The notes under the pieces: generated by a model | Databases searched by the model: none | Told to the model about the DNA's origin: nothing | What the model saw: the letters and a program-made list of their open reading frames with translations, nothing else | DNA from: Dysgonamonadaceae bacterium | GTDB lineage: Bacteria > Bacteroidota > Bacteroidia > Bacteroidales > Azobacteroidaceae | Assembly (NCBI GenBank): GCA_031267615.1 | Contig: JAIRYM010000091.1 | Span: 1-47,614 of the forward strand | Direction of reading: 5' to 3' | Length of the DNA: 47,614 nt | Part shown: positions 9,069 to 32,544 of the stretch, in pieces | Layout: each line of letters opens with the position of its first letter | How positions within the stretch are numbered: the first letter of the stretch is position 1 | Made by a program: the position numbers and the translations under genes

Positions 9069-9098
9069 ATATTTAACTTTTAAAAATTAACATTATTA

Positions 9099-11219
9099 TT
9101 AATTAACACCTTTCCAGTAGGGACTCTGCAAAAGTTTCGTATTGTTAATCAATGCTTGAATATTTATCGGGAAGAAATAATCCTTCTCGCCCCATTGTAT
9201 CTGATACAGATTCTGCGGTATGTAATAATCATCCGGAATATCCGGCTGACGCAGGTGATCTAACGCAGGATTTGCCCCACGAACAGGCTTGTCATAATAT
9301 TTTGACAGTTCTTTCCATCGACGTATATCCCAAAAACGCACACCTTCAAAAGCAAACTCGTTAAGTCGTTCACGATGTATAATCTCGCGCAAACCGGCTC
9401 TGTTAAGCGGTTTTGCTTTAGTTGTAGCATCTTTACCATAAGTTTCCCAACTTTCAACGACTCCCTCAAGTCCTGTACGGGCACGCACAGAGTCGATCCA
9501 ATAATAAGCGGCACTATTTGCAAGTTCAGTTGCATCATTATCAAAATTACCATCATTTCCAATTTCATTCAATGCTTCAGCGTACATCAGATAAAGGTCT
9601 GCCAAACGAATAATAGGAAATGGATATCTTTCCAGCAGTGCACCGCTTATTATGTTTTGTACCGTTATAGCATTTGCTATCTCATAATAAGAATCAATTG
9701 CCGCAAGTTTCTGCACCATATAACCGGTCGCAGGGAAACGTTCGACAATATTGAGATTGAAATTTCCATTCCATGTAACCCACATTCCAGCAGGCACAGA
9801 CGAAGTATTCGCCACAAAACCGGGCAATGCTCCGTAATAAAGAGAGAACGGATAGAGGATAGCGCCATAAAAACGGGGTTCGCGGTCGAAGTGCAAAGCA
9901 GCGGTATAACGGTTCAGTCCTGCCGCGACTACAGGATTTGTTGCAGCGGGCATAAACGCTCTGCCATCGAACTGCTTCCTTTTATACAAGCCTGCTGTAT
10001 CTGCAGACAATTGATACCAATCTTTGTCATCTTCAATAGGAATACCGTGTCCTGTATAGAATTGCTCAACCAGACTCAAAGTAGGAGCATAGTTGTGTTT
10101 CAGTTGTCCCCAACCCATACTCTGCACATTTGCCGATCCCAAAACAGGAATATTCGCTTCATGAATTTTATCACAACGGCGCTGGTCGCCCCAAATGATT
10201 TCAGTATTATATTCCCATTTATGAGTTACAGCTCCACGCACTTGAGACGCGTTGATGATAGTATCATTTACGAGAGAAATGTCGAGAATTTCAGTCGGGT
10301 GTGCATCTCTGAAATTATAGAGTTTGCGTCCTTTCGCTTCTGCTTCTTGTATTGCAATATTAAGCCAGTATGCCGCAGTATCCCATTTTGCTGCTTTATA
10401 TTCAGGAAACAAGTCTGTTCCTGAATAACCCGGCGCCTGTCTTGCTTCTTCGTTCCCGTTGAACAGCGGACTTGCAGCATAAGTAAGCACTTCAGCCTTC
10501 AAGGCAAGACAGATAACACGGTCGGGCTTACCTGCTTCATTTCGAACCACCATCAATGTGGTGTCTTCCATAATTGCCGCTGCCGCATCAAGCCAATTAC
10601 AAATATAATGAACTACTGTGTCTATTGGTTCACGAATTTGCATCTTTAGGTCATCGTCATCATGAAGTTCTACATTTACATCGCGTATAACAGGGATAGG
10701 TCCATACATTCGCATCAGCCAAAAATGATAATATGCTTTCAGGAACTGCACCTGCGCTATCCAATAATTTCTTTCATCTTGATATAAGTCATAAGGTTCT
10801 TCGCTTTTCGCCAAGAAGATGTTACAGTCACGTAATGCGGTAAACAGAGCTTTTCCTCCGTTTACATTTCCATCCTTTCCAAACGATTTTGCTGTAAAAT
10901 AATTTGGTGAAGGATCTTGAGGGTCATTTTTTCCAAACGGAATTTTTCTCCATAAAGATAAATTAATACCTGAGGAATTATCGAAAAACCACACTTCATC
11001 GCCCCCTACAAGAGCAGGGTTAGCTTCGGTATTGCCATGATCGGGCATAAACGAATAGAGTCCAACCAAAAACTTCTGCGCCTCTGCCCTATTCTTAAAA
11101 GCATCGTCGAGAGTCGGAAAATCGTCAGGTACAACGTCAAGAAAATCGCTGCACGAAACCGCCGCCAAAAGTGGTACTAACAATAGATACTTTTTAAATT
11201 TATTTAAATATGTTTTCAT
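9099..11219 (-). CDS. RagB/SusD family nutrient uptake outer membrane lipoprotein
   Basis: A glycan-binding lid lipoprotein that works on top of its SusC porin at the cell surface. The signal peptide ends LLAAVSCSDFLD, with the conserved lipobox Cys and the FLD motif usual at SusD N-termini. TPR-like helices are suggested by the YHFWLMRMYGPIPVI segment near residue 165. The C-terminal RLNEFAFEGVRFWDIRRW motif near residue 630 is the hallmark of the family. At 706 aa it is longer than many SusD proteins. It is 36 bp downstream of susC. Confidence 0.95.
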   Translation of the reverse strand: MKTYLNKFKKYLLLVPLLAAVSCSDFLDVVPDDFPTLDDAFKNRAEAQKFLVGLYSFMPDHGNTEANPALVGGDEVWFFDNSSGINLSLWRKIPFGKNDPQDPSPNYFTAKSFGKDGNVNGGKALFTALRDCNIFLAKSEEPYDLYQDERNYWIAQVQFLKAYYHFWLMRMYGPIPVIRDVNVELHDDDDLKMQIREPIDTVVHYICNWLDAAAAIMEDTTLMVVRNEAGKPDRVICLALKAEVLTYAASPLFNGNEEARQAPGYSGTDLFPEYKAAKWDTAAYWLNIAIQEAEAKGRKLYNFRDAHPTEILDISLVNDTIINASQVRGAVTHKWEYNTEIIWGDQRRCDKIHEANIPVLGSANVQSMGWGQLKHNYAPTLSLVEQFYTGHGIPIEDDKDWYQLSADTAGLYKRKQFDGRAFMPAATNPVVAAGLNRYTAALHFDREPRFYGAILYPFSLYYGALPGFVANTSSVPAGMWVTWNGNFNLNIVERFPATGYMVQKLAAIDSYYEIANAITVQNIISGALLERYPFPIIRLADLYLMYAEALNEIGNDGNFDNDATELANSAAYYWIDSVRARTGLEGVVESWETYGKDATTKAKPLNRAGLREIIHRERLNEFAFEGVRFWDIRRWKELSKYYDKPVRGANPALDHLRQPDIPDDYYIPQNLYQIQWGEKDYFFPINIQALINNTKLLQSPYWKGVN

Positions 11220-11255
11220 ACATTTATATTTTTTATTTGTTAATATTTAATTAGT

Positions 11256-14200
11256 TTAAAGGGTCAAGTTTAAACCAACGTTCCACACACGCTGCAATGG
11301 ATAGTTAAGTCCATTGCTGGCTAATTCCACATCCCAAAACTTGAATTTGCTGAATAGCAACAGATTGGTGCCACTCACATAAAGGCGCAATGAGCCTACT
11401 CGCATTTTCTTTGTCCATTTATCCGGCAATGAGTAACCGAGTTCAAGACTCTTAAAACGAAGATATGAATTATCATACATCCAAAATGTACTTGGAGTGC
11501 CCTCTTCATCCTTGTCGTTCATCCAGTTGTTCGAAAATTGTGATTCTGAACTTGCAAGGCGAGGCCAGCGAGCATACGGATTAGGATTTGCTTCCGACCA
11601 GTAGTCGTCTGCAATAAATTGCGCCAAACCTGTTTCATACAATTTGTTGTCTTCGTTTGTTGGTCCATGTATGATAAACGGCGCCATCTTCTGGCTGTTG
11701 ATAAACAGTGAAGCGCGATCTGAACCCTGGAAAAATGCAGAAAGGTCAATTCCCTTGTAACCTATTGAGAAACCGAAACCATAGTTGATTTCAGGTGTTG
11801 TCGGATAACCTATACCCGTTTTGTCCAAATCGTTAATAGTTCCATCTCCATTCAAATCTTTATACATTATATCACCCGGCATTGCACCCGACTGATAGGC
11901 TGAAGAAGGGTCGCCATCGATTCCATTATAATATTCTATTTCAGCATTATCAATAAACAAACGTTCAGCAATATAACCCATTCTTTGCTTTGTTGTCATT
12001 CCTACATGCGAGCGCCACGGCGAGCCAAGTTCTGCATATCCTGCTTCTTCATAAACGGCAAAAGTTGAATGAGCAAAAGTGAAGTTCCCTCGCGCTGTTA
12101 GCCACCAATCTTTACTAAACGACTGATTATAGTCCAAAGAAATATCAATACCTTCCGTATCAGCCTCTCCTGAATTAACATACGGCACTGACCACAAACC
12201 CATTGTAACAGAAATATCTGAACGTGGTTGAAGAATATTCACACGATGTTCTTTATAGATGTCAGCCAAGATATTAACTTTATTAAAAAATCCAAGTTCG
12301 ATACCGAGGTTGTGCTTATAAGCAATTTCCCATGTAATGCTTTCGTTTTTATATGCATTGATTTTAACGCCTTTCTTGTCTTTTCCCCAACCGTTGAAAG
12401 TATATCCATACGAAAAATCGCCTTCAGGCAATCTTGCATCATCACTGTTAAGAGAAACATTTTCGAGATAGAAAAATCTTTGGTCACCAATAGCGTCGTT
12501 ACCTACAAGTCCGTATGAGTAACGTAATTTCAACATAGAAATTTTGTCTTTAATGGGGGTCCAGAATTTTTCATTAGAAATTAGATAGCCTGCACCAAGA
12601 GAAGGGAAGAAGCCCCAGCGATGTTTTGCTGCAAATTTTTCGGAACCGTTATAACCAAAGTTTAATTCAACGATATAACGCAAGTCATAATCATAAGTGA
12701 AACGTCCGGCAAGTCCGAGGTTACGTTCCGGCAAGGATTCAAAGAATTTGCCTTCCTCTGCATCGCCTGTCTGACGGTTTCGCCCTGTTGCAACAAGCAT
12801 ACCACTCACATTGTGGATATCAAAATTATTTGCATAGTTCAATGACGCTTCACCGTACATTATGCCCTGCACCCCTTTACTTTCCGGCTTATACGTAAGA
12901 TAGTCACGTCCTTTATCAGGGTTGATTTCTTCCAGAAAAACATCGTTGGTATAAATAGAAGAAAAAGCAGTATAGTAGAATGGCTCTTTGGAACGCACCA
13001 GCGCATATTGTGCATTTCGCGTTGCATTAACCAAAGCGCGTCCGGAAAGTCCTTTCATAATACCGCTAAGATCCTGTTTCAGTTCAAATTGAGCCATCAA
13101 CGAAGAAGTGCTGCTTGTTCTGTAACCACGCAACATCTCTGCATAAGGGTTCATATAAGGATTACTTGCAGCCATAAAATCATTTCCAAACAGGATATGG
13201 CTTGCATTAGCATAACTGCCTTTCACATGAATTATTTCCTCTTCTCCAAGTTCGTTTTGTCCTATGAAAGTTCCTGTACCATAATCCGACGGATAGTAGG
13301 CAGGAAAACGAACAGGCGAAACTTGCAAAATTTTTGAATAGAGGTCATTACCGCCAGCCATAGGTCCTTGATAGTCATCAAAACCGCCGTGCAAACGAAC
13401 TGCCATTGAAGTAGTCGGGGTAATGTCGATATTGATATTCGAGTGAAGTGTATATTTCTTGTAGTTCACATTGTTGTCGAAATCACTGCGTGTTTCTTTT
13501 TTCAGAATACCGTTATCATTGGCAAACGAACCCGAAACATAATAGCGTGCAACTTTGCCGCCACCGGAAACGCTCATATTAACTCGCTGGTTGGTTGCTA
13601 CATCTTTGATTAGCATATCCATCCAGTCGGTATAGGGATAAAGGTAGGTATCTACTGAAGACGGGTCTTCAATACCTCTTAATACTTCTTGTATATATGC
13701 TCTAGGATAAACCAATCGTCGCGTTCTGCTTCCTGTTTGAGAAATAGCCCTTGTTGAATATGCCTCGTTAGCCATATTCATATAGTCGGCAGCGCCTGCC
13801 ATCTCTAATTTGCTGGTAGGAGAAGACCAACCGTTTTCTACACGGAAATTAACACGGGATTTTCCTTCTTTACCTTCTTTTGTAGAGATGAGGATGACAC
13901 CGTTAGCGCCTCGTGCGCCGTAAATTGCGGTTGCAGTAGCATCTTTTAACACCGAAAACGACTGCAAATCATCAGGATGAAGTTTTGCCAAATCATCTTT
14001 GCTCACTTCAATGTTGTCGATAAGAATCAGAGGGTCAACTTTTCCTGTTCCAAACGATGTAACGCCTCGTATAAAAAAGTCTGCATTAGATTCTGCGCCC
14101 GGCTCGCCTGAAGTCTGATAAGAAATCATACCTGCGATACGTCCTGCAAATGATGTGGTAAGATTACTGCTCGGAACACGCAAATCTTTCGTATCCACAC

Positions 14201-14624
14201 TCTGTATAGAACCAATCACTCTTTCCTTCTTTTGTTTAGCAAAGCCGACAACAGTAAATTCGTCAAGTTCATTTACCTGTTCTTCCATCACAATAATAAG
14301 GCTGGACTGTCCTGTATAGGTAATTTCCTTATTCGCCATACCAAGCGAAGATGCAACCAACTTTGTACCGCTAACAACATTAGTCATCTCAAAATTACCG
14401 TCATCATCGGCAGCAACACCTCTCGTACTCCCGACAACATTAATAAGAACGCCCGGAATGCCGTCTCCGTTCATATCAACTACACGTCCTTTTAAATTTG
14501 ATCCTTCCTGTGCGAATACAGAAGTGGAACCAAGTAGAAAAACAGCACACAACAGGAATATAAAGGTTCGTATCCCTCCTGAATGCAACAGTTTTCCAAT
14601 CAAGATTTTTAATTTTACTCTCAT
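11256..14624 (-). CDS. SusC/RagA family TonB-linked outer membrane protein
   Basis: A TonB-dependent importer for oligosaccharides or similar substrates. It has a signal peptide ending SVFAQEG, a carboxypeptidase-regulatory-like domain (LKGRVVDMNGDGIPGVLINV, about residues 45-120), a TonB-box-like DEFTVVGFAKQ, and a plug domain with the SusC signature SVLKDATATAIYGARGANGVI. A 22-strand barrel follows, ending NVGLNLTL with an aromatic near the terminus. The ORF opens at 14633 but the ATG at 14624 (MRVKLKILIGK) is the likelier start; about 1122 aa. It is first in an operon with SusD- and SusE-like genes; no hydrolase or regulator is adjacent. Confidence 0.95.
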   Translation of the reverse strand: MRVKLKILIGKLLHSGGIRTFIFLLCAVFLLGSTSVFAQEGSNLKGRVVDMNGDGIPGVLINVVGSTRGVAADDDGNFEMTNVVSGTKLVASSLGMANKEITYTGQSSLIIVMEEQVNELDEFTVVGFAKQKKERVIGSIQSVDTKDLRVPSSNLTTSFAGRIAGMISYQTSGEPGAESNADFFIRGVTSFGTGKVDPLILIDNIEVSKDDLAKLHPDDLQSFSVLKDATATAIYGARGANGVILISTKEGKEGKSRVNFRVENGWSSPTSKLEMAGAADYMNMANEAYSTRAISQTGSRTRRLVYPRAYIQEVLRGIEDPSSVDTYLYPYTDWMDMLIKDVATNQRVNMSVSGGGKVARYYVSGSFANDNGILKKETRSDFDNNVNYKKYTLHSNINIDITPTTSMAVRLHGGFDDYQGPMAGGNDLYSKILQVSPVRFPAYYPSDYGTGTFIGQNELGEEEIIHVKGSYANASHILFGNDFMAASNPYMNPYAEMLRGYRTSSTSSLMAQFELKQDLSGIMKGLSGRALVNATRNAQYALVRSKEPFYYTAFSSIYTNDVFLEEINPDKGRDYLTYKPESKGVQGIMYGEASLNYANNFDIHNVSGMLVATGRNRQTGDAEEGKFFESLPERNLGLAGRFTYDYDLRYIVELNFGYNGSEKFAAKHRWGFFPSLGAGYLISNEKFWTPIKDKISMLKLRYSYGLVGNDAIGDQRFFYLENVSLNSDDARLPEGDFSYGYTFNGWGKDKKGVKINAYKNESITWEIAYKHNLGIELGFFNKVNILADIYKEHRVNILQPRSDISVTMGLWSVPYVNSGEADTEGIDISLDYNQSFSKDWWLTARGNFTFAHSTFAVYEEAGYAELGSPWRSHVGMTTKQRMGYIAERLFIDNAEIEYYNGIDGDPSSAYQSGAMPGDIMYKDLNGDGTINDLDKTGIGYPTTPEINYGFGFSIGYKGIDLSAFFQGSDRASLFINSQKMAPFIIHGPTNEDNKLYETGLAQFIADDYWSEANPNPYARWPRLASSESQFSNNWMNDKDEEGTPSTFWMYDNSYLRFKSLELGYSLPDKWTKKMRVGSLRLYVSGTNLLLFSKFKFWDVELASNGLNYPLQRVWNVGLNLTL

Positions 14625-14686
14625 AAAAAACAAATTAAGTTACAAAATTCTTAAAATTTATCACGATATTAAGTTCAAAATAGCTG

Positions 14687-14841: not shown

Positions 14842-15540
14842 TCAAAACTTCATTTTATACGATGCGCCGAGATAAATCACGCGCGGGTCGTCGTATTTAA
14901 GATACTCGTCCCAGCGAACAAATAAGTCGATGGAATTAGTCAGATTAAACTTGTATGTCGTACATGCCTGAATACGCAACCTGACGAAATCATAGTGGGT
15001 CTCGTAATCATTGAGATTTGTAGAAAAATCGCACGAAAGCGACTCGCCCCACCGCGCCCCCATCTGGTGATAGGATACTTCAAACTTGTTTTTCAGTACG
15101 TAACGCGGATTGATACGATATATACCTCTGCTCTCGTCGCGAATTGTCGATTGCACTCGCCCGCGCCACGATACATCCCACTGCCGGTCAAGTGGCTGCT
15201 TATATATCAGGTTAAAGTAAAATCTGTTACGCGCTTCGTAGTGATAATCACCGTTCCACAAATAAATGAAAGCATAATAGAGACCTGCTTTCAGTCGTCC
15301 AGGTATTAGCGGATAGTTCAGTCCGACGGAAGTAACGCTGCGGTCGAAACCGACAGGATTGTTATTTCCGAGGAATCGCAGTTCTTCTTCCACTCCTAAA
15401 CTTATCGGACGGCGATATGTAAATTCCGCCAAATCCTTCTCTCCTTCATACGACATCGACAATCCGCCCTGTGTTGCCCGCGACTGCGCCACAGCCAAGA
15501 CAGGGAATATAAGCGCGATGTACAACATAATTTTTTTCAT
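14842..15540 (-). CDS. DUF2490-type outer membrane protein
   Basis: A 232-aa protein with a signal peptide (MKKIMLYIALIFPVLAVAQS) followed by alternating hydrophobic/polar strands, ending LGASYKMKF with a terminal Phe, as expected of a small outer-membrane beta-barrel. The pattern, including ELRFLGNN, WRGRVQ and LRIQACTTYKF, resembles DUF2490 proteins of Bacteroidota; their function is unknown. The track begins at a GTG at 15546. The ATG two codons later is preferred and lies 2 bp after the DUF4956 stop. In this cluster it could be an export or anchoring component, which is inference from position only. Confidence 0.7.
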   Translation of the reverse strand: MKKIMLYIALIFPVLAVAQSRATQGGLSMSYEGEKDLAEFTYRRPISLGVEEELRFLGNNNPVGFDRSVTSVGLNYPLIPGRLKAGLYYAFIYLWNGDYHYEARNRFYFNLIYKQPLDRQWDVSWRGRVQSTIRDESRGIYRINPRYVLKNKFEVSYHQMGARWGESLSCDFSTNLNDYETHYDFVRLRIQACTTYKFNLTNSIDLFVRWDEYLKYDDPRVIYLGASYKMKF

Positions 15541-15542
15541 AA

Positions 15543-16289
15543 TCACGAAAACTTTGTTACGTGGTCTATTGTATTGATTTCTTTACTCGAAGAATTGTAA
15601 TACACTTTCAGAAATGCCACGTCTCGAAGAAAGTCTATATGTCCAACTTCTATTCTGATGACGTCAAGTCCTGTGCGCTGTTTTACATCGACAAGCAAGT
15701 CGTTGTATTTTTCCGGAGTAACAAGGTTGATTTTCTCATACAGAACGATTTTTGTGGCATTCTGATGCAGAAATTTTGTACCTTCAAGAACTATAACAAA
15801 AAGCAGGAAAAGTATGTTTGCCACAATTACTGAAATAAACGGGATTATAGACGAAAGTCCGTTCACTGCAGAAAGAGCAATGATGACAAACAGGTAGGTC
15901 ATATCCCGTACTTGCAGCGATTCTGTTCTGTATCGTATCATTCCGAATACGGCAAACAGACCGAGAGCGATACCTGCACTCATCGACATTGCCTGCAACA
16001 CGTAGAGCAACAGGAAAATCGACACGCTAAACAGCATAAAAGTAAAATAATAGTCTGTGTTACGGCTCTTTTTATAATAAAAATATTGAACGATGATCCA
16101 TGCAAACAGTATATTGACGAAGAACGAAACGAGTAACATACCGAAGTGCGGAATTTCAAACGGGAAATAGCCTCCGTTTGCTGTGCTTCCGCAAATCTGT
16201 TCAATTGTTTTGTCGTAGAAAGGAGTCATCTTATTCCTTGCTACATTTTCGGCGGCAATCGCCGCATCAATGATATCTCCCTGTATCAT
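15543..16289 (-). CDS. DUF4956 family integral membrane protein
   Basis: A 248-aa protein with about four membrane helices (roughly 48-68, 80-98, 103-120, 133-165). It carries the conserved GLFAVFGMIRYRTESLQVRDM loop typical of DUF4956, then a soluble C-terminal domain of about 75 residues with LDVIRIEVGHIDFLRD. The molecular function of DUF4956 is not known to me. Such proteins recur beside VTC-domain polyphosphate polymerases and CotH kinases, as here. It lies 2 bp after the VTC gene and is probably co-translated with it, suggesting a two-part membrane machine. Confidence 0.85.
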   Translation of the reverse strand: MIQGDIIDAAIAAENVARNKMTPFYDKTIEQICGSTANGGYFPFEIPHFGMLLVSFFVNILFAWIIVQYFYYKKSRNTDYYFTFMLFSVSIFLLLYVLQAMSMSAGIALGLFAVFGMIRYRTESLQVRDMTYLFVIIALSAVNGLSSIIPFISVIVANILFLLFVIVLEGTKFLHQNATKIVLYEKINLVTPEKYNDLLVDVKQRTGLDVIRIEVGHIDFLRDVAFLKVYYNSSSKEINTIDHVTKFS

Positions 16290-16291
16290 AA

Positions 16292-17053
16292 TTATTTTTG
16301 TAATAGTTTGTTAATTAGTTGAATTTTACGTTTAAATCTGTTATACTTGCAGCCGGGATTGGTAAGTACCATCCCGATGCAATACTTACTGAAAGAACTC
16401 CGTTTGATTCGCAGTTCCCGCAAGATTTCGGCAAAGTCTGAACGTTGCCATCCATCTTGTTTGAGTTCGAGAATCATTGCATCGTTGAGCGTAGTTTTTT
16501 CCTGCGTTACACAGTTGAAGAAAGAAAGTCCGGTGTCGATAGTGATTCTTTCTGTAGCCTTTCTGTTAACAAAAGTCATCCTTTGAAAATTGTTTTCCAA
16601 AACAGGCTCAAGCATAGTTGTCGGAAAAAGAGAGTTGTCATCGAGAAATTTCAGTCCATCGGCAAGTCCGTCTATTGTTTCTACGTGCGAAACGGGCGAA
16701 GGTATGCGCTTTTTACTTGTTCTGCCTTTGTTATTCTTATTCTTGATTTCGAGAAATGCAAGCCTTGAATCAATGTATGAACGAATCCTTATCTTTTGAC
16801 GATTCAATTTACCGTTTTGGTGCATTTTCAAAAAATCAAGAGCCTTTGTGTCGAAATATTGCGTAGCGTAGTTTGCAATCCGCTTGTCGCCAATTATTTG
16901 CACCTTAAACTTTGCTTGCATCAGCGACAAAATTTTGGGCAAAAGAGCAACATTAGCTACATATTTCGTATCAATACGGTCCATCAGACGAATGTGCGAC
17001 ATCTCGTCCAATGTGATAACAGCCATATCATTTAGACTTGAAGGCGTACTCAT
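16292..17053 (-). CDS. VTC-domain polyphosphate polymerase-like protein
   Basis: A 253-aa single-domain triphosphate-tunnel protein of the VTC type. The tunnel residues expected for catalysis are visible in order: DTKY (Lys30), KIRIRSY (Arg89, Arg91), LEIKNK (Glu102, Lys104), NRKATERITID near residue 170, ILELK and FSKYCIG near the C-terminus. Yeast Vtc4 uses this set to make polyphosphate from ATP, so an active polymerase is plausible; the product here is not proven. No SPX domain or membrane helix is present, so DUF4956, 2 bp downstream, is the likely membrane partner. It overlaps the upstream gene by 26 bp. Confidence 0.85.
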   Translation of the reverse strand: MSTPSSLNDMAVITLDEMSHIRLMDRIDTKYVANVALLPKILSLMQAKFKVQIIGDKRIANYATQYFDTKALDFLKMHQNGKLNRQKIRIRSYIDSRLAFLEIKNKNNKGRTSKKRIPSPVSHVETIDGLADGLKFLDDNSLFPTTMLEPVLENNFQRMTFVNRKATERITIDTGLSFFNCVTQEKTTLNDAMILELKQDGWQRSDFAEILRELRIKRSSFSKYCIGMVLTNPGCKYNRFKRKIQLINKLLQK

Positions 17054-17549
17054 AATCTTTTACTGAATACAGTTTACCGTCAGGATTATAGTTGAATTGC
17101 TTTTTCTTTCTAAGGACGTCTTTCAAATTATAGTATTCGTACTTACGAACTCTGATAAGTTTGTTTTTGTCGTCATAAACTCTTTCTTCGGTGATTTTTC
17201 CTGTTGCCTTGTCGTATTGATAAGTTATTCTTTCTGTAACTATACCCCAGGCATTGTATTCTTTTTCTTCTACTTTGTAGCCGTCCTCATCCCAGACAGA
17301 ATAGTGGTCAATCCAAGGTTTTCCACCATTTGCAAGCCTGTTGTTTTCTGTTACCGCCAAATTGCCTTTTGCTGCCTTGCGTTCTTCGGGCGTCATTATA
17401 AAGGCATTAGCACGCTGTTGAGCAACGGCTTGTTGTACCGTATCAGTCGATTGAGGATTTTGAGAATGTGCCGCTCCTATCCCTACGAAAGATGCAACAA
17501 CTCCTGCAAAAGATTTCTGTAAAAATTCTTTTCTTGAAATATTATTCAT
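17028..17549 (-). CDS. Secreted protein of unknown function with YD-like strand repeats
   Basis: I prefer the ATG at 17549 (MNNISRKEFLQKSF), 173 aa, over the track start at 17573, because it follows the upstream stop by 2 bp. The N-terminus resembles a Tat-type signal (SRKEFLQKSFAG then a hydrophobic stretch to AAHSQ), although the twin residues are Arg-Lys. The mature part has repeated strands of the form YDKATGKITEERVYDDKNKL and FNYNPDGKLYSVKDYEY, reminiscent of YD/MORN-type repeats. The function is unknown. It sits between the lipoprotein and the VTC gene and overlaps VTC by 26 bp, so it belongs to the cluster. Confidence 0.65.
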   Translation of the reverse strand: MNNISRKEFLQKSFAGVVASFVGIGAAHSQNPQSTDTVQQAVAQQRANAFIMTPEERKAAKGNLAVTENNRLANGGKPWIDHYSVWDEDGYKVEEKEYNAWGIVTERITYQYDKATGKITEERVYDDKNKLIRVRKYEYYNLKDVLRKKKQFNYNPDGKLYSVKDYEYAFKSK

Positions 17550-17551
17550 AT

Positions 17552-18370
17552 TTAACGTTTTAGATTTTTCCAAATCGTAATACTTAATGAATCTGTACCG
17601 TCATCCTTAAGAGGAGGATAATATTTGTACGGCTCGCCGACAACAACAGTCTGTGCATCGGTTTTAGTTTCAACATTTCTGGCGTCGAAATATACTGATG
17701 ATTTAACTTCCGTAATTGCATAAACCTGATACTCTTGATTGGGACGCAGTTCTTTGAACATAAATACTCCGTCGCCTCTGGTATCGGCAAAAGACACGCT
17801 GTCGGAAGGATTGGCAATGTAAACACGCGCTGCTACAGCAGGGATTGAATCATAATATTTTCCTGCAATTCTTACCTGTATATTTGTGCCTATATTGTTG
17901 CAATATCTGATCCACACTTTTCCTTTAATCATTGCGGTATTGTAAATATCGCCTTTGTGATAATAAATAGGCTCAGCTTTGACAGTGCCGGAAGAACCTG
18001 CTTTCACATTTACCATTTCGGGTGTTTGATTTCTGAATTTGTCTTCCGAAACACAATAAACGCGATAATCGCCCTTGCGAAGATAATCAAAACGGTAGTA
18101 ACCGTCAGGACCTGTGTCGACGTCGTCAAGCACCTGATTGTCATCCTTTGCAGTAATGTAAACTTTCGTTCCATATTTACCGTCTTTCAGAGTATCTGTG
18201 CGAAACGAATAATTATCATCGAAATGCACCACTTCATACACGTAGCCTTCGATAGAAGCCTTTCCGCCAAAACCTTCATCTTCGTTACACGACACGAATG
18301 TTAGCGACGCTGTTACGAGCATCGCAAAAAGATAACCAAAACGTGATTTCATTTTGCTTAAATTTTTCAT
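17552..18370 (-). CDS. Surface lipoprotein with carboxypeptidase-regulatory/CNA-B-like domains
   Basis: A 272-aa lipoprotein: the signal peptide ends SLTFVSCNEDEG, with the lipidated Cys near residue 28. Two prealbumin-like Ig modules follow. One (about 38-135) has DTGPDGYYRFDYLRKGDYRVY; the second (about 145-250) has ADTRGDGVFMFKELRPNQEYQVYAI. Both match the (D/N)G.Y.F..L..G.Y.VY pattern of carboxypeptidase-regulatory-like or SdrD/Cna-B repeats, which act as structural stalks. It precedes the secreted YD-like gene by 2 bp. A second start at codon 7 is possible. Confidence 0.75.
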   Translation of the reverse strand: MKNLSKMKSRFGYLFAMLVTASLTFVSCNEDEGFGGKASIEGYVYEVVHFDDNYSFRTDTLKDGKYGTKVYITAKDDNQVLDDVDTGPDGYYRFDYLRKGDYRVYCVSEDKFRNQTPEMVNVKAGSSGTVKAEPIYYHKGDIYNTAMIKGKVWIRYCNNIGTNIQVRIAGKYYDSIPAVAARVYIANPSDSVSFADTRGDGVFMFKELRPNQEYQVYAITEVKSSVYFDARNVETKTDAQTVVVGEPYKYYPPLKDDGTDSLSITIWKNLKR

Positions 18371-18480
18371 AATTTTTTTTTACTTTTAATTTTTATATTT
18401 TAGTTTTTTACAAACAATTTTGTTTTTTTCCCTTGTCCGTTTCAACTGTCAGCAAATAAACACCTTTCAATAGACCTTTT

Positions 18481-18508
18481 GTATAGACGGCGTTTGCACC
18501 GTCTATAC
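18481..18508. repeat. Inverted repeat with perfect 10-bp arms inside the sorting-domain remnant
   Basis: GTATAGACGG, an 8-nt loop, CCGTCTATAC. It falls at the same place in the sorting domain as an imperfect palindrome in the neighbouring CotH gene (20465-20492). Confidence 0.85.
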
Positions 18509-18526
18509 GGAACAGCGCTGTTCCGT
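18507..18526. repeat. Perfect 20-bp palindrome
   Basis: ACGGAACAGC|GCTGTTCCGT has no spacer. It lies directly beside the inverted repeat at 18481-18508, in DNA that formerly encoded a T9SS sorting domain. Role unknown; it could be a cruciform or protein-binding site, or a REP-like element. Confidence 0.85.
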
Positions 18527-18735
18527 TGATGCTGTTAACGGTATATCTTTGACTGTTAATGCGGTCGAAACGTTTAAAATATAGCCAACAGCCCGAGGAT
18601 AAACAAGATTTTCTTTGTCATTTTTCTAATATGTGAGATTTATAGTTTATCAGGCATCTTTTGCCTTACGTTACTTCCAAATTTGCGGTTTTGTGTGTTC
18701 GTGTGATTTATGATATCAAGGTTTAAGGATATTAA

Positions 18736-18785
18736 AACGGTAAACCTGTTGCACGATGTATTTCTATCGTGCAACAGCTACCGTT
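18736..18785. terminator. Long two-tier hairpin downstream of the Gly-rich T9SS gene
   Basis: Inner 12-bp stem CTGTTGCACGAT/ATCGTGCAACAG with an 8-nt loop, enclosed by an outer AACGGTA/TACCGTT stem. On the minus strand it is followed by TTTTAAT. It may end transcription of the CotH / Gly-rich genes, or be a mobile REP-like palindrome. Confidence 0.6.
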
Positions 18786-18792
18786 AATGAAA

Positions 18793-18820
18793 CTAATAGC
18801 AGTGTTGCCACTGCTATTAG
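18793..18820. terminator. Perfect 12-bp hairpin
   Basis: CTAATAGCAGTG-TTGC-CACTGCTATTAG, perfect 12-bp arms with a 4-nt loop, 40 bp after the stop of the Gly-rich T9SS gene. On the plus strand a T run follows about 15 nt later; on the minus strand no T run follows directly. Terminator or REP-like element. Confidence 0.55.
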
Positions 18821-18860
18821 CGATAGGAAATAAGTTTTTTTTCACTTTTCAGTGATAATT

Positions 18861-20333
18861 TTATTTAACAACGAGTTTGGTTGCAACGCCATCAGCCACA
18901 ACTACATAAATGCCCTTTACTTCAGGAGCAGCAATGCCTGCATCGCCAATAGCGCTACCCGCAATCTGTCCGCTGATGCTATAAACTGTAACAGTTTTCG
19001 TGCCTGCGGGAACATAGATGCGTCCGTCAGCAATGTACGCTTTTTCAGCAGGAACGTCGAAAGCAGGAATATCTGTCGTTATTGCATTGTTGATTACACC
19101 ATAATTTGGACCTCCTACAACTGTACCTGTGACATTTTCGCCTGCGTTTGCATAAATAGTACCTGTTGTTTCAATAGTATAACCACCAGCATCTACTGTT
19201 AATACTTTCGGAACTGTAAAATTTACGCTACCAAGGTTGTAAACATCATCACCTTCTACAGCCGACGGCTTACTAAAAGTAACAGTCCCTGAAAATGAAA
19301 TGTCATTTGTATTGCGTTCTTTATCTCTTACATCAAAGAATGTTGCATCAATAGATGGTCCATATTTTAATATTTCGTCAGGATTTGAATTGTCATCTGC
19401 CTGAAGCAAAAGTACAGCATTTTCTCCTGCTGTAGGATAAAAGTAGTCTAAGAATGTTTGGCCGTCAATCGATAAATTAAGAATAACAAGAGCGTCTTCT
19501 TCTATTCTTATATCACCAAAAACTTGTCCTTCAGGTCTGTTTATCTCGTCACAAACATTAGTCGCATTACCAAGAGCCCATTGGACATAAACCGTAGCAT
19601 CACCTTTAATGATAGTTTCGGTTCCGCGTCCATGGCTACCACCACCGATAGTAAAAGCAACTACTACACCACCACTGATCGTGATTTTTCCTGCATTTTG
19701 CATGTATCCACCACCAATAGAAGCGGCGTTGTAACCGCCTTGTGCAATAATAGTTCCGCTTTCAATGATGATTTCGCCGGTAAAAGTGTACGGTGTACTG
19801 CCTTTAAAACCAGCGTTACCAATACCGGCACCGCCTCCGTAATCACCTTCTGTATCAAAATTGGATCCTGAGCCGAAAGCCTTCAACTGACCATCGCCAT
19901 TGATGATGATTTTCGAACCTTCCTCTACCAAGATAGCTGCAATTGCAGTCCTAAGTTGGTTAACGATTACATTACAGTCTCCTTTGAAGTTAAGATGAAG
20001 AGTACCTCCGTTAACGACTCTAATGGGTGAAACAAATTCATGGCGAATGTCAGCTTCGTCAAGATTAACAGTAGCCTCAACTCCATCAATTAAAATTGAT
20101 TCAAAGAGTCCTTTTCCATTAAAAGTAACTTCAGCATCATCTTCAATAGTGTAGGTAAAAGCAGTACCACCATCGTCCCAATCCGCTTCATAACCGTCGC
20201 CTGTGATAGCATCAGTAGGAGGATCATCCTCATTGAGAGTTACTGTTACTGTTTCCGCGATAACGGGACTTGCAAATGCTGCAGCGATAAACAAAACAGC
20301 ACTTACGATTGCATTTGTAAAAATCTTTTTCAT
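18861..20333 (-). CDS. Secreted Gly-rich beta-solenoid-like protein with C-terminal T9SS-type sorting domain
   Basis: A 490-aa secreted protein. The signal peptide runs to about residue 27 (SPVIAET). The first half carries carbohydrate-binding-like strand repeats and a glycine-rich block (about 165-235) with recurring IGGGY..NAGKITISGG and ESGTIIAQGG units, as in parallel beta-helix adhesins. The C-terminus (about 415-490) has TVTVYSISGQ and a VKGIYVVVADGVATKLVVK ending, consistent with a T9SS sorting domain. It lies 49 bp downstream of the CotH gene with no promoter seen, so it is probably co-transcribed and could be a surface partner or substrate of CotH. That last point is inference. Confidence 0.75.
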   Translation of the reverse strand: MKKIFTNAIVSAVLFIAAAFASPVIAETVTVTLNEDDPPTDAITGDGYEADWDDGGTAFTYTIEDDAEVTFNGKGLFESILIDGVEATVNLDEADIRHEFVSPIRVVNGGTLHLNFKGDCNVIVNQLRTAIAAILVEEGSKIIINGDGQLKAFGSGSNFDTEGDYGGGAGIGNAGFKGSTPYTFTGEIIIESGTIIAQGGYNAASIGGGYMQNAGKITISGGVVVAFTIGGGSHGRGTETIIKGDATVYVQWALGNATNVCDEINRPEGQVFGDIRIEEDALVILNLSIDGQTFLDYFYPTAGENAVLLLQADDNSNPDEILKYGPSIDATFFDVRDKERNTNDISFSGTVTFSKPSAVEGDDVYNLGSVNFTVPKVLTVDAGGYTIETTGTIYANAGENVTGTVVGGPNYGVINNAITTDIPAFDVPAEKAYIADGRIYVPAGTKTVTVYSISGQIAGSAIGDAGIAAPEVKGIYVVVADGVATKLVVK

Positions 20334-20382
20334 TTTTTAAAAATTTTATTGTTAATAAATAATATGGAATTTTTTGTTAAAA

Positions 20383-23300
20383 TTATTTTTTGATAATTTT
20401 CTTCACTGCGCGTCCCGCTTCCGTATCTACGGCAACAATGTAAACGCCTTTGGGAAGACCCTGTGTAGAGACGTGGTATGCCGCGTCTGTACGACGGATA
20501 AGAACATTGCCGCTGATACTGCTAACAGTAACGCTGTTGATTTTGGCAGTAGTAGCAATGTTAAGTTCATCTTCTACGGGATTGGGATATACTGTTACTA
20601 TCAGTTCGCGGGCAACTTCAACTTCAGGAATAGAGAGTCCCGGACCCGGATCAGGAGTATTGGATATTTCCAAAGGACCTGTTCCGTCATTGTTTGCGTG
20701 TACAACCGACTGTCCTGTAACTGTATATAGTGATTTGTCATCAACTTTGAAAGTATCTATCGGCGCATTATATTTATCGAAAAGAACGATATAATAATTA
20801 TGATCATAGGAGATTCCGAATCCAAAATCATCCTGAGTCAGATTAAGTTCTTTGCTTGAACTGATTCTTGTTCCGTCAGGAATATAGTATGGAGAAGAAG
20901 CAAGATTTCCATCGTTGTAGCGAATGATGTAATAACCGCCTACATCAACAGAAGTGTTTTCGCCATTGTAGATGTCAATCCAGTCGCCTGTTTCATCACT
21001 TGGACTTGCAGCGTAAACTTCGTTGATTCTGACTGCTTTCGGATTACAGTCGCTACATACCTCATAAACAGCCTGTGTTTCATATTCGGAAGAAATTTCT
21101 CTTGAATATGCCAGCGATTCTGTTTTATCATATGCTGTAGAAAGTTTCAATGCTGTAAGTTGCATATCGAAATAGAGGTCAACATTGGTGTTGCAGTCTG
21201 CCTCTGTCGGAGTTCCGTTGCCGTTTTCATTTGCAGCCTGATGCACTTCAACTGCAATCCAGTTTGTACCTTGAACAAACTTGCTTTTGTCAACCATAAA
21301 AGAGAAAGGCGCTGCAAGCGTAGTATTAGCCAGCGTTCTTGTTGTGATAGGATAATTCGGATCTGTTCCGAAACCTGCACGGTAAACTTCTTCACCATTG
21401 ACATAAAATGCTGCAACGTCATCTACATTTGCCCAAATCTGGAAATAACCCAAATCGCTCAAATCAGATATTTCTATTGGTTTTACAAAATAAGCGCCGT
21501 TAATCGGGCACGAAAAGCCAAAAGGTTTTGGAGCGATTCGTGTAGCAACCGTACCTTTTCCCTGCACCAAGTCGTTTACTCCTGAAGATCCGAATCCAAG
21601 AGGCGCGGGTTTGTCTTTTCCACTGCCTATACCTGTAAAAGCAGAAGTGTCTGTTCTCCACGCAGTTGCTGTAGCGCCGCCAATTCTGTCTTTATTGAAA
21701 CCATACCAGCTCCACGTATCGCCTTTGCTTATAAACACTTCGGCATCGCCTGTCGGAGTGTGTTGCCAATGTTTGAACTTATAGCCCGAAACTTCGGCTG
21801 CTGCAAATTCTGCCGCACAATCCGAAGCATAGTTTACAGTTGTCAAAACTCCTTTCGGCAATGTCTGTCCGTTCAATTTAACGGTTGCCTGAGGTATACT
21901 TGCTGAAATTTTTACAGGGACTGTTGAGCTACTAAAGAAGTTTTTGGTTTCAGTTAACCACGATGATGTTCTACCGTTAACGTAGTTTCTTACTGCCGTA
22001 ACTGCGCCGGCCCAGTTAAAATCCGATCTACTGCGATATGCAACAAAAGCAGGAATATCGGCATTCAACTGATTTTTGAAACTGTCAACCATTGCAGTAA
22101 GTCTTTCAGGTTTGAACGTTGTTTGTGCATGGACTTCTGCACGAGCCAACAAACGAGCCTTAAATTCAGAACTTTTCATAAATGATTGAAGGAGACCTTT
22201 AAATTTGCCACCTAAGCCTTTATCATCGCAACCCGGATTTAATATATCATTCCAACCAGAGCCGCAAATAGCACCGTTATCAAGTGCAAAGTCATTATCA
22301 TAAGCAAAGTAACGCCATTTTCCACCTTCAGCAACAGGACGCCAAAGTTTTTGATTGTTTTGTGGCCAATCCCAGTTCTTGCCGTAAACGCTAAGCAACA
22401 ACAAGTCAATATAATTGTCTATATCAAGCAGTTCGCATGCCTTCGCATATTCAACAGGGTCGCTCATATCTTGATCCGCAATTTGATTGAACATTTCGTC
22501 AAATGCTTTCTTCTTTTCGTAAGGTATGAAAGGAATGCTTGTGTTTAATTCTGGGGATGTTTTGGGTGCAGGATAAAACATTTCACTGTTTTCCACTACA
22601 TAAACGTCATCCCCGCCAATTCCATAACTCGAATAGATATTTGAATCGTTAGAACGTTCACGGATATTCACTATTCCCCAATATTCGCCATTAAGAAAAA
22701 TAACTGCCGGCTGATATGCTTGAACATCTACTTCCATATAACCGATAGCCAGCGTTGACATCAAAGCATCACGAAAATATGATACCCCATTCATACTTCC
22801 TGCACCTTCCGTTCCCGCAAAACGAAGCATTACGCTTTCGTATTTATGATTGGGTTTGGATGCAAAGAAATCGTAGTCGAGTTTGTCGTTACCAAGTTTA
22901 TCTTTCGCCTTAACTTTGAAAGATTTCATGAAAGTATTCTGACGAGTACACTGCCCTGCAACAGCAATATCTACCTCCTGCGAAATCTTCAAATTGCCGT
23001 CTTTATCCCAAACCTCAAAGTTGGCTGGACGGTCCCACGGCTGATTATAATTGCCTATCCTGTTGCAACCTTGAGTTATCCAAGCTCCATTTGCATTAAG
23101 AGCGCCATCGTGAGCGCGTATTATAGGATGATTTCCCGCAGGTGAATCCGCGTTGCCATCTCCGTTAGCATCTACATCATACATACCGACTTCCGCGTCA
23201 TACATAAACCTGTCTTCGACGGTAAGAGCAATAACAGGAAGACTCGGTTTAGTTACCCCAACAAGATACGTTGATGTTGCTATTACACTCGGCAATTTAC

Positions 23301-24108
23301 CAGGTGCAACCGCTATCGCACGAATAACAGACTGTCCGCTTACTGAAATCGGAGCAGAATAAACGGTAGATGTAGTAGTAGGTTCTGTACCGCCACCAAC
23401 AACCGTAATTTTTTTGTCAGTGCGAGCATCGGTGATTGTGTAATAAATAGTAGAGCCAGCTTCCGCTGTCAAGGTTACAGACTGCGTTCCAGAATAAAAT
23501 CCGGCAGGGATACTGAAAGTTGGAGCAGATGTTTGTACAAATCCGGCTATAATAACATAATTGCTACCATTTGCCGCACTTTTGGTAGGAGTAGCAAAGA
23601 AACCCCATATTTCTTCGCCGTCGTCAAATGTACCTGTACGCCCGTAAGATGCGTTGCGATACTGTTCCGGATAAGCAATGACATCTATCACTGCACCGCC
23701 TTTCGACAGTTTTAGATTGCCGCCTTCACTATCAAGTTTGAAAGATGAGGTTCTACCTACTAAGTCAGCTTTATTTGCAATGGCATATTTAACATCACCT
23801 CTGTAATACACAGAATCTTGACGTTCAAAATTCAACACTGCATAACCGCCTGCGGGTACTTTGACTGCACCCGGCGTCCAAAACCTCTCACCCGACTTAG
23901 TAGTCTTGCTGAATGTATATTGATTCAGTTCGATAACATTGGAGGTCGGGTTATAAACTTCAACCCAACTGTTGAAGTTATAGCCGTTTTCCGCATCAAG
24001 AGCGCCAGCCGATGCATTTCGCACCAAAATCTCGTTTATCACAAGGTCTGTCTGCGAAGATGCCGGTAACGGCAACAACAATAATAATAAGTAAATAATG
24101 TTCTTCAT
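20383..24108 (-). CDS. CotH kinase family protein with lamin-tail domains and T9SS sorting domain
   Basis: A 1241-aa secreted multidomain protein. After the signal peptide comes a lamin-tail domain (LVINEILVRNA, about 20-160), a chitobiase/FN3-like Ig module (about 190-280), and then the CotH domain (about 290-700). The CotH domain shows FMKSFKVKAKD, MLRFAG, EYWGIVNIRER and WRYFAYDNDFALD, corresponding to protein-kinase-like ATP-binding and metal-binding segments. A second lamin-tail domain (VRINEVYAASPSDETGDWIDIYN) lies near 1030-1140, and the C-terminus VTVYPNPVEDELNIA is a classic T9SS type A sorting domain. CotH proteins are known to phosphorylate extracellular proteins in spore formers; the target here is unknown. 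It is first in the cluster. Confidence 0.9.
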   Translation of the reverse strand: MKNIIYLLLLLLPLPASSQTDLVINEILVRNASAGALDAENGYNFNSWVEVYNPTSNVIELNQYTFSKTTKSGERFWTPGAVKVPAGGYAVLNFERQDSVYYRGDVKYAIANKADLVGRTSSFKLDSEGGNLKLSKGGAVIDVIAYPEQYRNASYGRTGTFDDGEEIWGFFATPTKSAANGSNYVIIAGFVQTSAPTFSIPAGFYSGTQSVTLTAEAGSTIYYTITDARTDKKITVVGGGTEPTTTSTVYSAPISVSGQSVIRAIAVAPGKLPSVIATSTYLVGVTKPSLPVIALTVEDRFMYDAEVGMYDVDANGDGNADSPAGNHPIIRAHDGALNANGAWITQGCNRIGNYNQPWDRPANFEVWDKDGNLKISQEVDIAVAGQCTRQNTFMKSFKVKAKDKLGNDKLDYDFFASKPNHKYESVMLRFAGTEGAGSMNGVSYFRDALMSTLAIGYMEVDVQAYQPAVIFLNGEYWGIVNIRERSNDSNIYSSYGIGGDDVYVVENSEMFYPAPKTSPELNTSIPFIPYEKKKAFDEMFNQIADQDMSDPVEYAKACELLDIDNYIDLLLLSVYGKNWDWPQNNQKLWRPVAEGGKWRYFAYDNDFALDNGAICGSGWNDILNPGCDDKGLGGKFKGLLQSFMKSSEFKARLLARAEVHAQTTFKPERLTAMVDSFKNQLNADIPAFVAYRSRSDFNWAGAVTAVRNYVNGRTSSWLTETKNFFSSSTVPVKISASIPQATVKLNGQTLPKGVLTTVNYASDCAAEFAAAEVSGYKFKHWQHTPTGDAEVFISKGDTWSWYGFNKDRIGGATATAWRTDTSAFTGIGSGKDKPAPLGFGSSGVNDLVQGKGTVATRIAPKPFGFSCPINGAYFVKPIEISDLSDLGYFQIWANVDDVAAFYVNGEEVYRAGFGTDPNYPITTRTLANTTLAAPFSFMVDKSKFVQGTNWIAVEVHQAANENGNGTPTEADCNTNVDLYFDMQLTALKLSTAYDKTESLAYSREISSEYETQAVYEVCSDCNPKAVRINEVYAASPSDETGDWIDIYNGENTSVDVGGYYIIRYNDGNLASSPYYIPDGTRISSSKELNLTQDDFGFGISYDHNYYIVLFDKYNAPIDTFKVDDKSLYTVTGQSVVHANNDGTGPLEISNTPDPGPGLSIPEVEVARELIVTVYPNPVEDELNIATTAKINSVTVSSISGNVLIRRTDAAYHVSTQGLPKGVYIVAVDTEAGRAVKKIIKK
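20465..20492. repeat. Imperfect palindrome within the CotH sorting-domain coding region
   Basis: GTAGAGACGTGG-tatg-CCGCGTCTGTAC: arms match at 10 of 12 positions. It encodes the stretch just before the GLPKGVY turn, homologous in position to the palindrome in the pseudogene at 18481-18508. Confidence 0.7.
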
Positions 24109-29582: not shown

Positions 29583-30761
29583 TTACACCACAACATTCAC
29601 AATTTTTTTCGGCACAACAATCACTCTCTTAGGCGTTCTGCCTTCGAGCCATTTTGCTGAACTATCGTGCAAGAGTGCAGCTTTTTCAACTTCTTCGGGC
29701 AACATTTCTACCGGCAAAGCAAGGCTGAAACGTGTTTTGCCGTTGAAAGAAATAGCGTATGTAACCGAGTCTTCTTTGATATAATCTTCGTTGAAATCGG
29801 GAAAACAAGCATCGCAAACAGTACCTTCATTGCCAAGTCGATGCCAAAGATCTTCAGCGATGTGCGGAGCAAAAGGCGACAGTACAACTACAAAATCCTG
29901 CAATACAGCACGCTTTGAGCATTTCATCGCAGCCAGTTCGTTGGCACAAATCATGAAAGCAGCAACCGAAGTGTTGAACGAGAAATTCTCAATGTCCTGC
30001 CCTACTTTTTTTATGAGTTTGTGAATAGATTTCAGTTCGTCAGCGGTCGGCTGTTCGTTGGAAACCCAAAAATTATCGCCGTCGAAAAACAGATTCCAAA
30101 ATTTGCGCAAAAACCTCGAAACACCGTCTATGCCATTGGTATCCCAAGGTTTGGACTGCTCAATAGGACCGAGAAACATCTCGTAGAGCCGCAACGTGTC
30201 GGCGCCGAACTTTTCTACAACATCGTCAGGGTTCACAACATTGAACATTGACTTCGACATCTTCTCGACCGCCCATCCACAGACATATTTGCCGTCTTCG
30301 AGGACAAATTCGGCGTTTTTGTATTCAGGATTCCAGTTACGGAAAGCCTCCAAATCAAGGATGTCGTTCGATACAAAATTAACGTTTACATGAATCGGAG
30401 TAGTATCATATTTGTCTTTCAACCCAAGAGATACAAACTTGTTTGTGCCTTTTATGCGATATACAAAATTACTTCTGCCCTGAATCATTCCCTGATTTAT
30501 GAGTTTTTGGAACGGTTCTTCGTTTTTTACAAAACCGCAGTCGTGCAAAAATTTGTTCCAAAACCGGCTGTATATCAGGTGTCCGGTGGCGTGTTCGGTA
30601 CCGCCGACGTATAAATCGACGTTACCCCAGTATTCGTTTGCCTCGCGTGACACCAAAGTTTTGTCGTTGTGCGGGTCTTCGTAGCGCAGATAGTATGCCG
30701 AAGAGCCGGCAAAGCCGGGCATAGTGCATAGTTCAAGAGGATATTTTTTATTGTTTTTCAT
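29583..30761 (-). CDS. leuS: Leucyl-tRNA synthetase, C-terminal part (KMSKS and anticodon-binding domain) as a separate ORF
   Basis: A 392-aa ORF matching the C-terminal part of bacterial Leu[17 protein letters not shown] (catalytic-domain segment), the [17 protein letters not shown] helix, EKMSKS (the ATP-site KMSKS loop, near residue 170), [14 protein letters not shown], the anticodon-binding helical domain with [13 protein letters not shown], and the small C-terminal domain. It starts at an ATG (30761) preceded by an A-rich leader (AGAAAGAAAAAAAT), in the same reading frame as the upstream ORF but after three in-frame stops (TAG, TAA, TAG). LeuRS needs both halves, so this is either a genuine two-subunit enzyme or a damaged gene. 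I favour the former because both halves are otherwise intact. Confidence 0.88.
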
Positions 30762-30800
30762 ATTTTTTTCTTTCTAACTTATTTATAGTTCGTTTCTGAT

Positions 30801-32462: not shown

Positions 32463-32498
32463 ATAAATTACCTGTCTTTGATCTGTTGAAATGAACTG

Positions 32499-32506
32499 CA
32501 AAGGTA
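32499..32506 (-). promoter_or_regulatory. Probable leuS promoter (-7 box)
   Basis: The minus strand reads TACCTTTG, about 37 bp before the leuS ATG. The -33 region at 19 bp reads TATG, a weak match. It is divergent from the promoter at 32545-32575. Confidence 0.5.
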
Positions 32507-32544
32507 CAAAAAACTTGTAATACAGCATAAATTTTATCTGCATG

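Follow-up and report, generated by a model that had tools for sequence, protein, structure and literature searches.

Genes for a CotH-type kinase, a polyphosphate polymerase and a DUF4956 protein have been described in association at Gram-positive Pel loci (PMC7112168), and the Pel operon of Streptococcus intermedius holds this triad as SIR_1592-1594 (PMC12345266). In S. intermedius, deletion of the CotH gene lowers Pel, deletion of the DUF4956 gene raises it, and the VTC deletion mutant still aggregated (PMC12345266). The authors of that study described MgtC-like and ACT-like parts and stated in 2025 that they had seen no case of the three-gene synteny beyond Pel loci (PMC12345266). In Bacteroides thetaiotaomicron, BT3498-BT3499, which encode a DUF4956 and a DUF2490 protein, were down 7.6-fold in an iron-deficiency experiment (listed value, 0.175; PMC10434189). 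The original prediction for the locus described here held that the triad has no agreed function; this is correct but incomplete, as the S. intermedius Pel-operon phenotypes have been published (PMC12345266). Our literature search found no reported activity for any bacterial VTC of this type and no publication proposing an export role for these genes.

Gene organization of the locus

The DNA analysed was a stretch of 47,614 nucleotides (the window) from a Dysgonamonadaceae bacterium (GCA_031267615.1, contig JAIRYM010000091.1). The window genome (G000) is a 2.1-Mb draft, 87.6% complete, whose relatives match Bacteroidales records; a termite-gut host is a reading of the record names. Seven genes, transcribed in the order CotH kinase, Gly-rich protein, CPD-fold lipoprotein, YD-like protein, VTC, DUF4956 and DUF2490, were confirmed as genuine open reading frames on the minus strand at the positions given in Table 1, and their arrangement is far from chance. 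Pfam searches bore out the predicted families of DUF2490 (E = 2.6e-9), DUF4956 (E = 3e-49), VTC (E = 3e-30; 105.8 bits versus a cut-off of 23) and CotH (E = 1e-29; 104 bits versus a cut-off of 23.8), and assigned the lipoprotein to CarboxypepD_reg. The Gly-rich and YD-like proteins matched no Pfam family at E<=0.1, and the T9SS tail was the sole name above cut-off in an NCBIfam scan.

Table 1. Features of the CotH-VTC-DUF4956 locus, in order of transcription
Feature	Position in the window	Strand	Description and evidence
Secreted CotH-type kinase	20383..24108	-	1241 aa; Pfam, TIGR04183, alignment A7, 5jd9 profile match
Gly-rich secreted protein	18861..20333	-	490 aa; T9SS-type C-terminus, without Pfam family
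Relic region	18371..18860	-	Remains of two cargo genes; tblastn and translation
CPD-fold (CarboxypepD_reg) lipoprotein	17552..18370	-	272 aa; lipobox FVSC; Pfam
Secreted YD/MORN-like protein (TATYD)	17028..17573	-	181 aa; alignment A8
VTC domain protein, triphosphate-tunnel polyphosphate polymerase type	16292..17053	-	253 aa; Pfam, tunnel residues, Vtc4 alignment
DUF4956 inner-membrane protein	15543..16289	-	248 aa; Pfam, alignment A2, AlphaFold2 model
DUF2490 outer-membrane beta-barrel	14842..15546	-	234 aa; Pfam, AlphaFold2 model, strand-face analysis

The core unit consists of the lipoprotein, YD-like, VTC, DUF4956 and DUF2490 genes, which show overlaps of 22, 26 and 4 bases and one 2-base gap, a layout resembling that of a translationally coupled operon. 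A gap of 490 bp parts the Gly-rich gene from this core, and the seven genes therefore form two units. Thus, the tight spacing originally predicted for all seven genes applies to the last five, which overlap or touch, but not to the interval before them.

In two relatives (G021 and G028), the CotH and Gly-rich genes also lie upstream of the core. Their CotH proteins are 57% identical to that of the window, and the Gly-rich orthologues, which adjoin CotH, show 29-32% identity over the full length. Both relatives have two cargo genes, encoding about 1147 and 854 aa, in the interval that separates the Gly-rich gene from the core. When the proteins of these loci (L032 and L043) were used in tblastn searches, the window gap was found to hold a frame-broken T9SS tail (~18426-18539; E = 3.6e-7) and a signal-peptide remnant (~18767-18826; E = 0.005). 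As both relics match genes that G021 and G028 retain intact, the gap is most likely a scar left by cargo loss. The CotH and Gly-rich genes have most likely been linked to the core since the split of the window species, G021 and G028 at the latest. The large secreted proteins encoded in this interval in the two relatives (L032:2080-8321 and L043:12158-18466) contain BACON, Flg_new and beta-helix regions as well as HExxH-like motifs, carry a T9SS tail and are possibly metallopeptidases.

Two further features of the window were recorded. A SusC/SusD-type pair and a DUF4959/DUF5126/DUF5000 protein are encoded directly downstream of DUF2490 (7464-14633, minus strand). Leucyl-tRNA synthetase is encoded by two open reading frames (29583-32543, minus strand) with three stops between them, the N-half (580 aa) carrying the catalytic and editing parts and the C-half (392 aa) the anticodon domain. 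Among genus relatives, at least a dozen share this joint as the end of the N-half. In five relatives (L178-L181 and L183), the 8-10 kb read downstream revealed no C-half, which in another is a separate gene 2.5 kb off (L184:4953-6104); still others have an intact leucyl-tRNA synthetase gene. The split looks clade-wide; a split leucyl-tRNA synthetase is known from Aquifex.

Distribution of the core genes

The phylum set comprised 248 Bacteroidota genomes, most of them drafts, with 48 VTC places. DUF4956 was encoded directly downstream of VTC on the same strand at 44 of the 48, a near-obligate pairing; of the other four places, one was just over the 500-base limit, two had intervening genes or a different order, and one was a fragment. 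The simple open reading frame caller extended some VTC frames. An apparent VTC-DUF4956 fusion in Bacteroides cellulosilyticus (L127) was an artefact of masked N bases, and an adaptor-VTC fusion in L072 was a spurious reading-frame extension.

VTC is accompanied by the lipoprotein, in the same position as in the window, by the YD-like protein, encoded upstream of VTC, and by DUF2490, in each case at 21 of the 23 loci from the genus and family. When named genomes were scanned with DUF4956 rather than VTC as the seed, 77 Bacteroidales loci with VTC were obtained, among which the YD-like protein was present upstream of VTC at 58 and DUF2490 at 62; B. cellulosilyticus and B. salyersiae are among the species represented. 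The core is kept in about 20 relatives, and partial versions occur across Bacteroidales, including Bacteroides.

Properties of VTC and DUF4956

The residues Y66, D68, R85, K87, R89, E102, K104, R158, T171, D173, K223 and Y224 of VTC were invariant among 49 homologues, across which the conserved basic and acidic tunnel residues were either invariant or at least 90% conserved. The VTC profile also aligned to yeast Vtc4 (E = 6e-18), and the tunnel residues are intact, as had been predicted. The protein has neither an SPX nor a membrane domain and is predicted to be cytosolic.

Of the 248 phylum genomes, 223 have PPK1, as do 40 of the 43 that carry VTC. In the latter, VTC is therefore an extra enzyme and not a mere stand-in for storage synthesis, which counts in favor of an export role; a replacement of PPK1 by VTC was rejected at the phylum level. 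Within the family, the negative association between VTC and PPK1 was not significant (Fisher P = 0.15). No recognizable PPK1 (PF02503) or Ppx/GppA (PF02541) was detected in the window genome at its 87.6% completeness, and VTC occurs without PPK1 in seven genomes of the family that are at least 92% complete. In these genomes, VTC would be the sole recognized polymerase.

The AlphaFold2 model of DUF4956 (mean pLDDT, 83.6) has five long helices followed by a C-terminal beta-alpha-beta-beta domain. Where the third membrane helix ends, R121 is invariant and R119 at least 90% conserved among 56 homologues (alignment A2). No PDB sequence match was obtained, nor any fold match to a solved channel or to the membrane domain of eukaryotic VTC; a Vtc1-like domain was unsupported by both sequence and fold searches. 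No DUF4956 relative was found in the viral contigs searched.

Envelope partners

DUF2490 was modeled by AlphaFold2 as a barrel (mean pLDDT, 92.8) with 11 strands listed, and the barrel probably has 12. When the face of lower hydrophobicity on each strand, assigned from sequence and not from coordinates, was taken as the lumen, these faces carried about 20 Lys/Arg versus 13 Asp/Glu, with a ladder of conserved Arg and Lys residues. A fold search gave weak matches to small barrels, including the NanC porin and the polysaccharide-export barrel of PgaA (4y25), all with E > 1e-3. The YD-like protein has a hydrophobic N-terminus with an SRKEF motif that occurs in the clade of the window only (alignment A8), and Tat export of this protein is therefore not claimed in general.

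Among 39 phylum loci, VTC-DUF4956 was accompanied by a HlyD/AcrA-type adaptor at 21, by DUF2490 at 12 and by both at none. These partners are mutually exclusive (Fisher P = 5e-6, a significance inflated by kinship of the genomes). Two sorts of adaptor occur, one encoded upstream and the other downstream, and each is a member of the membrane-fusion protein family, as identified by HlyD_3 and AcrA/EmrA/MacA matches and by profile-profile comparison at 98.6%. Only one adaptor locus (L064) contains a TolC-type gene. It reads CotH-DUF4956-HlyD-TolC/OEP-VTC-LTD, and its five genes from DUF4956 onward touch or overlap. The parts of a tripartite exporter, namely an adaptor and an outer-membrane channel, are thus present in L064 and absent at the window locus, which has DUF2490. 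A DUF2490 barrel, a HlyD adaptor and a TolC-type channel are the partners expected for outward transport of an anionic polymer. The original prediction that VTC and DUF4956 make or handle a polyanion at the membrane fits the adaptor, the TolC-type channel and the predicted basic lumen of DUF2490.

Export model and a possible signaling role

We consider it about an even chance (roughly 0.5) that the core operon encodes a machine that makes and exports an anionic polymer, most likely polyphosphate. The polymer's identity, the direction in which it moves and all steps of catalysis and transport are inferred, as follows. VTC would polymerize phosphate from ATP in the cytosol, and DUF4956 would be its membrane partner, through which the growing chain would pass the inner membrane. 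In Bacteroidales, the chain would leave through the DUF2490 barrel, aided by the lipoprotein and the YD-like protein, and in other Bacteroidota classes a HlyD-type adaptor and a TolC-type channel would take the role of DUF2490. At the surface, secreted CotH and the Gly-rich T9SS protein may be partners that modify or form the matrix where the polymer ends. Against this model stand the failure of DUF4956 to match a VTC membrane domain or solved channel, the weak fold matches of DUF2490, and the restriction of the TolC-type gene to one adaptor locus. In addition, the deletion phenotypes of S. intermedius suit a regulatory role at least as well.

The main rival to export, which has a smaller though real chance of being right, is a signaling role. 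VTC-DUF4956 would be a module for phosphate or nucleotide sensing that tunes a surface polysaccharide or matrix; the small domain of DUF4956 would sense, VTC would make or remove a phosphorylated messenger, and no polymer would be exported. The streptococcal phenotypes partly favor this role, given the opposite effects of the DUF4956 and CotH deletions on Pel and the aggregation of the VTC mutant, as do the MgtC-like and ACT-like parts described by the same authors (PMC12345266). The beta-alpha-beta-beta end of our DUF4956 model gave weak fold matches, regulatory (ACT) chains of aspartate kinase among them. However, DUF4956 is not supported as an MgtC protein, its sole match at E<=0.1 being DUF4956 itself and no fold match being found, and an adaptor, a TolC-type channel and an outer-membrane barrel would be odd beside a cytosolic signaling pair. 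Furthermore, PelG over the cut-off was found in none of 52 VTC genomes searched, including the window genome, so Pel is not the common output. Nor, it follows, is the triad generally an accessory of Pel; a Pel link was rejected for Bacteroidota, and no Pel gene was recognized in the Pfam scans of the window.

The CotH kinase and its linkage to the core

The CotH protein consists of a signal peptide, an LTD, a CHB_HEX_C/Fn3_assoc region, the CotH domain (residues ~383-715), a second LTD and a T9SS type A tail recognized as Por_Secre_tail/TIGR04183, in agreement with the predicted giant secreted CotH-type kinase. With this sorting domain and with the T9SS translocon protein SprA encoded in the genome, it is a predicted T9SS cargo. 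The CotH domain profile matched Bacillus CotH (5jd9; E = 4e-35), and E484, D580 and D604 were invariant among 20 homologues (alignment A7), the two Asp residues matching the catalytic pair expected of CotH kinases; in B. subtilis CotH, D228 and D251 are catalytic (PMC7821199). The enzyme would most likely modify surface material. The T9SS-type C-terminus of the Gly-rich protein gave no match in the window copy, and Por_Secre_tail was recognized in the G021 orthologue. Three more CotH genes are present in the same genome (G000:C26:45388-46446, C83:9556-10455 and C75:449-1540).

CotH was linked to VTC both locally and genome-wide. At 15 of 39 phylum loci, a CotH gene lay within 9 kb of VTC on the same strand, versus 0.37 expected. 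CotH occurred in 42 of 43 genomes with VTC versus 54 of 202 without, and the co-occurrence persisted in a family-stratified test of 245 of the 248 genomes (five of their families not fully listed; P = 2e-6), with the caveat that P values overstate independence because the genomes are related. Beyond Bacteroidota, CotH stands beside VTC-DUF4956 in Actinomycetota (L170) and Bacillota (L171), where the triad comes from an actinomycete and an Enterococcus faecalis plasmid; none of the neighbors scanned was recognized as a pel gene. All three families were matched in the archaeal control genome Methanosarcina acetivorans. The lack of any PelG over its cut-off in the 52 VTC genomes contradicts the 2025 claim that the triad is absent outside Pel loci.

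The predicted recurrence of CotH, VTC and DUF4956 in diverse bacteria was thus borne out and widened. In the proposed comparison of neighborhoods across Bacteroidota, the order VTC-DUF4956 proved to be conserved, but adjacency of CotH was limited to some loci. The view of the seven genes as one conserved cluster was not upheld: in most Bacteroidales, neither CotH nor the Gly-rich gene adjoins the core, and certain Bacteroides have the core but lack CotH altogether. VTC and DUF4956 occur without CotH in G285, a genome of the same order, and in the control genome Bacteroides ihuae; CotH is therefore not needed for the core.

It is conceivable, but improbable, that there is no joint function, with VTC-DUF4956-DUF2490 as a housekeeping unit and CotH and the Gly-rich protein as passing cargo in a variable region. 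A CotH gene within 9 kb on the same strand was found at 0 of the 23 genus and family loci and 3 of the 77 Bacteroidales loci, as this reading would expect; the retention of the CotH-Gly-rich pair ahead of the core in G021 and G028, the local enrichment across the phylum and the co-occurrence within families speak against it. Similarly improbable is the bolder reading that VTC and a DUF4956 channel form a dedicated exporter whose polyphosphate serves mainly as a phosphate donor for secreted CotH, with no ATP outside the cell: the near-constant presence of CotH in VTC genomes, its position beside the pair in three phyla and the occurrence of all three families in M. acetivorans would suit it, but described CotH enzymes use ATP, the core does without CotH in G285 and B. 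ihuae, and 54 genomes have CotH without VTC.

Discussion

VTC and DUF4956 proteins occur in common gut Bacteroides. The export model, if true, would name genes by which bacteria place polyphosphate outside the cell and would account for the recurring association of VTC, DUF4956 and CotH with envelope export parts. Independently of the model, the occurrence of the triad outside Pel loci corrects the published statement that it is confined to them.

The locus resembles the Pel operons of Gram-positive bacteria such as S. intermedius in the adjacency of the same three families. The loci studied here differ in that no PelG over its cut-off was found in the 52 VTC genomes searched, and they have Gram-negative envelope partners (DUF2490, a HlyD adaptor or a TolC-type channel), together with T9SS secretion. 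With the eukaryotic VTC complex (yeast Vtc4/Vtc1) they share the VTC tunnel domain with its conserved residues intact and, putatively, the coupling of synthesis to membrane passage. Unlike the yeast complex, the bacterial catalytic protein has no SPX domain and no membrane helices, and its membrane partner belongs to another family (DUF4956), has no fold match to the yeast counterpart and would act at a different membrane. The likeness to tripartite HlyD/AcrA-TolC exporters lies in the adaptor family at 21 of the 39 phylum loci and in the OEP protein at one; in contrast to those exporters, the engine would be DUF4956 with VTC and not an ABC, MFS or RND pump, and the lineage of the window has DUF2490 instead of an adaptor. 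Finally, the kinase domain can be aligned over its length with that of the spore-coat CotH of Bacillus (5jd9) and has the conserved Glu and two Asp residues, whereas the window protein, at 1241 aa, is a T9SS surface protein that also carries LTD and further domains and is encoded by a non-spore-former.
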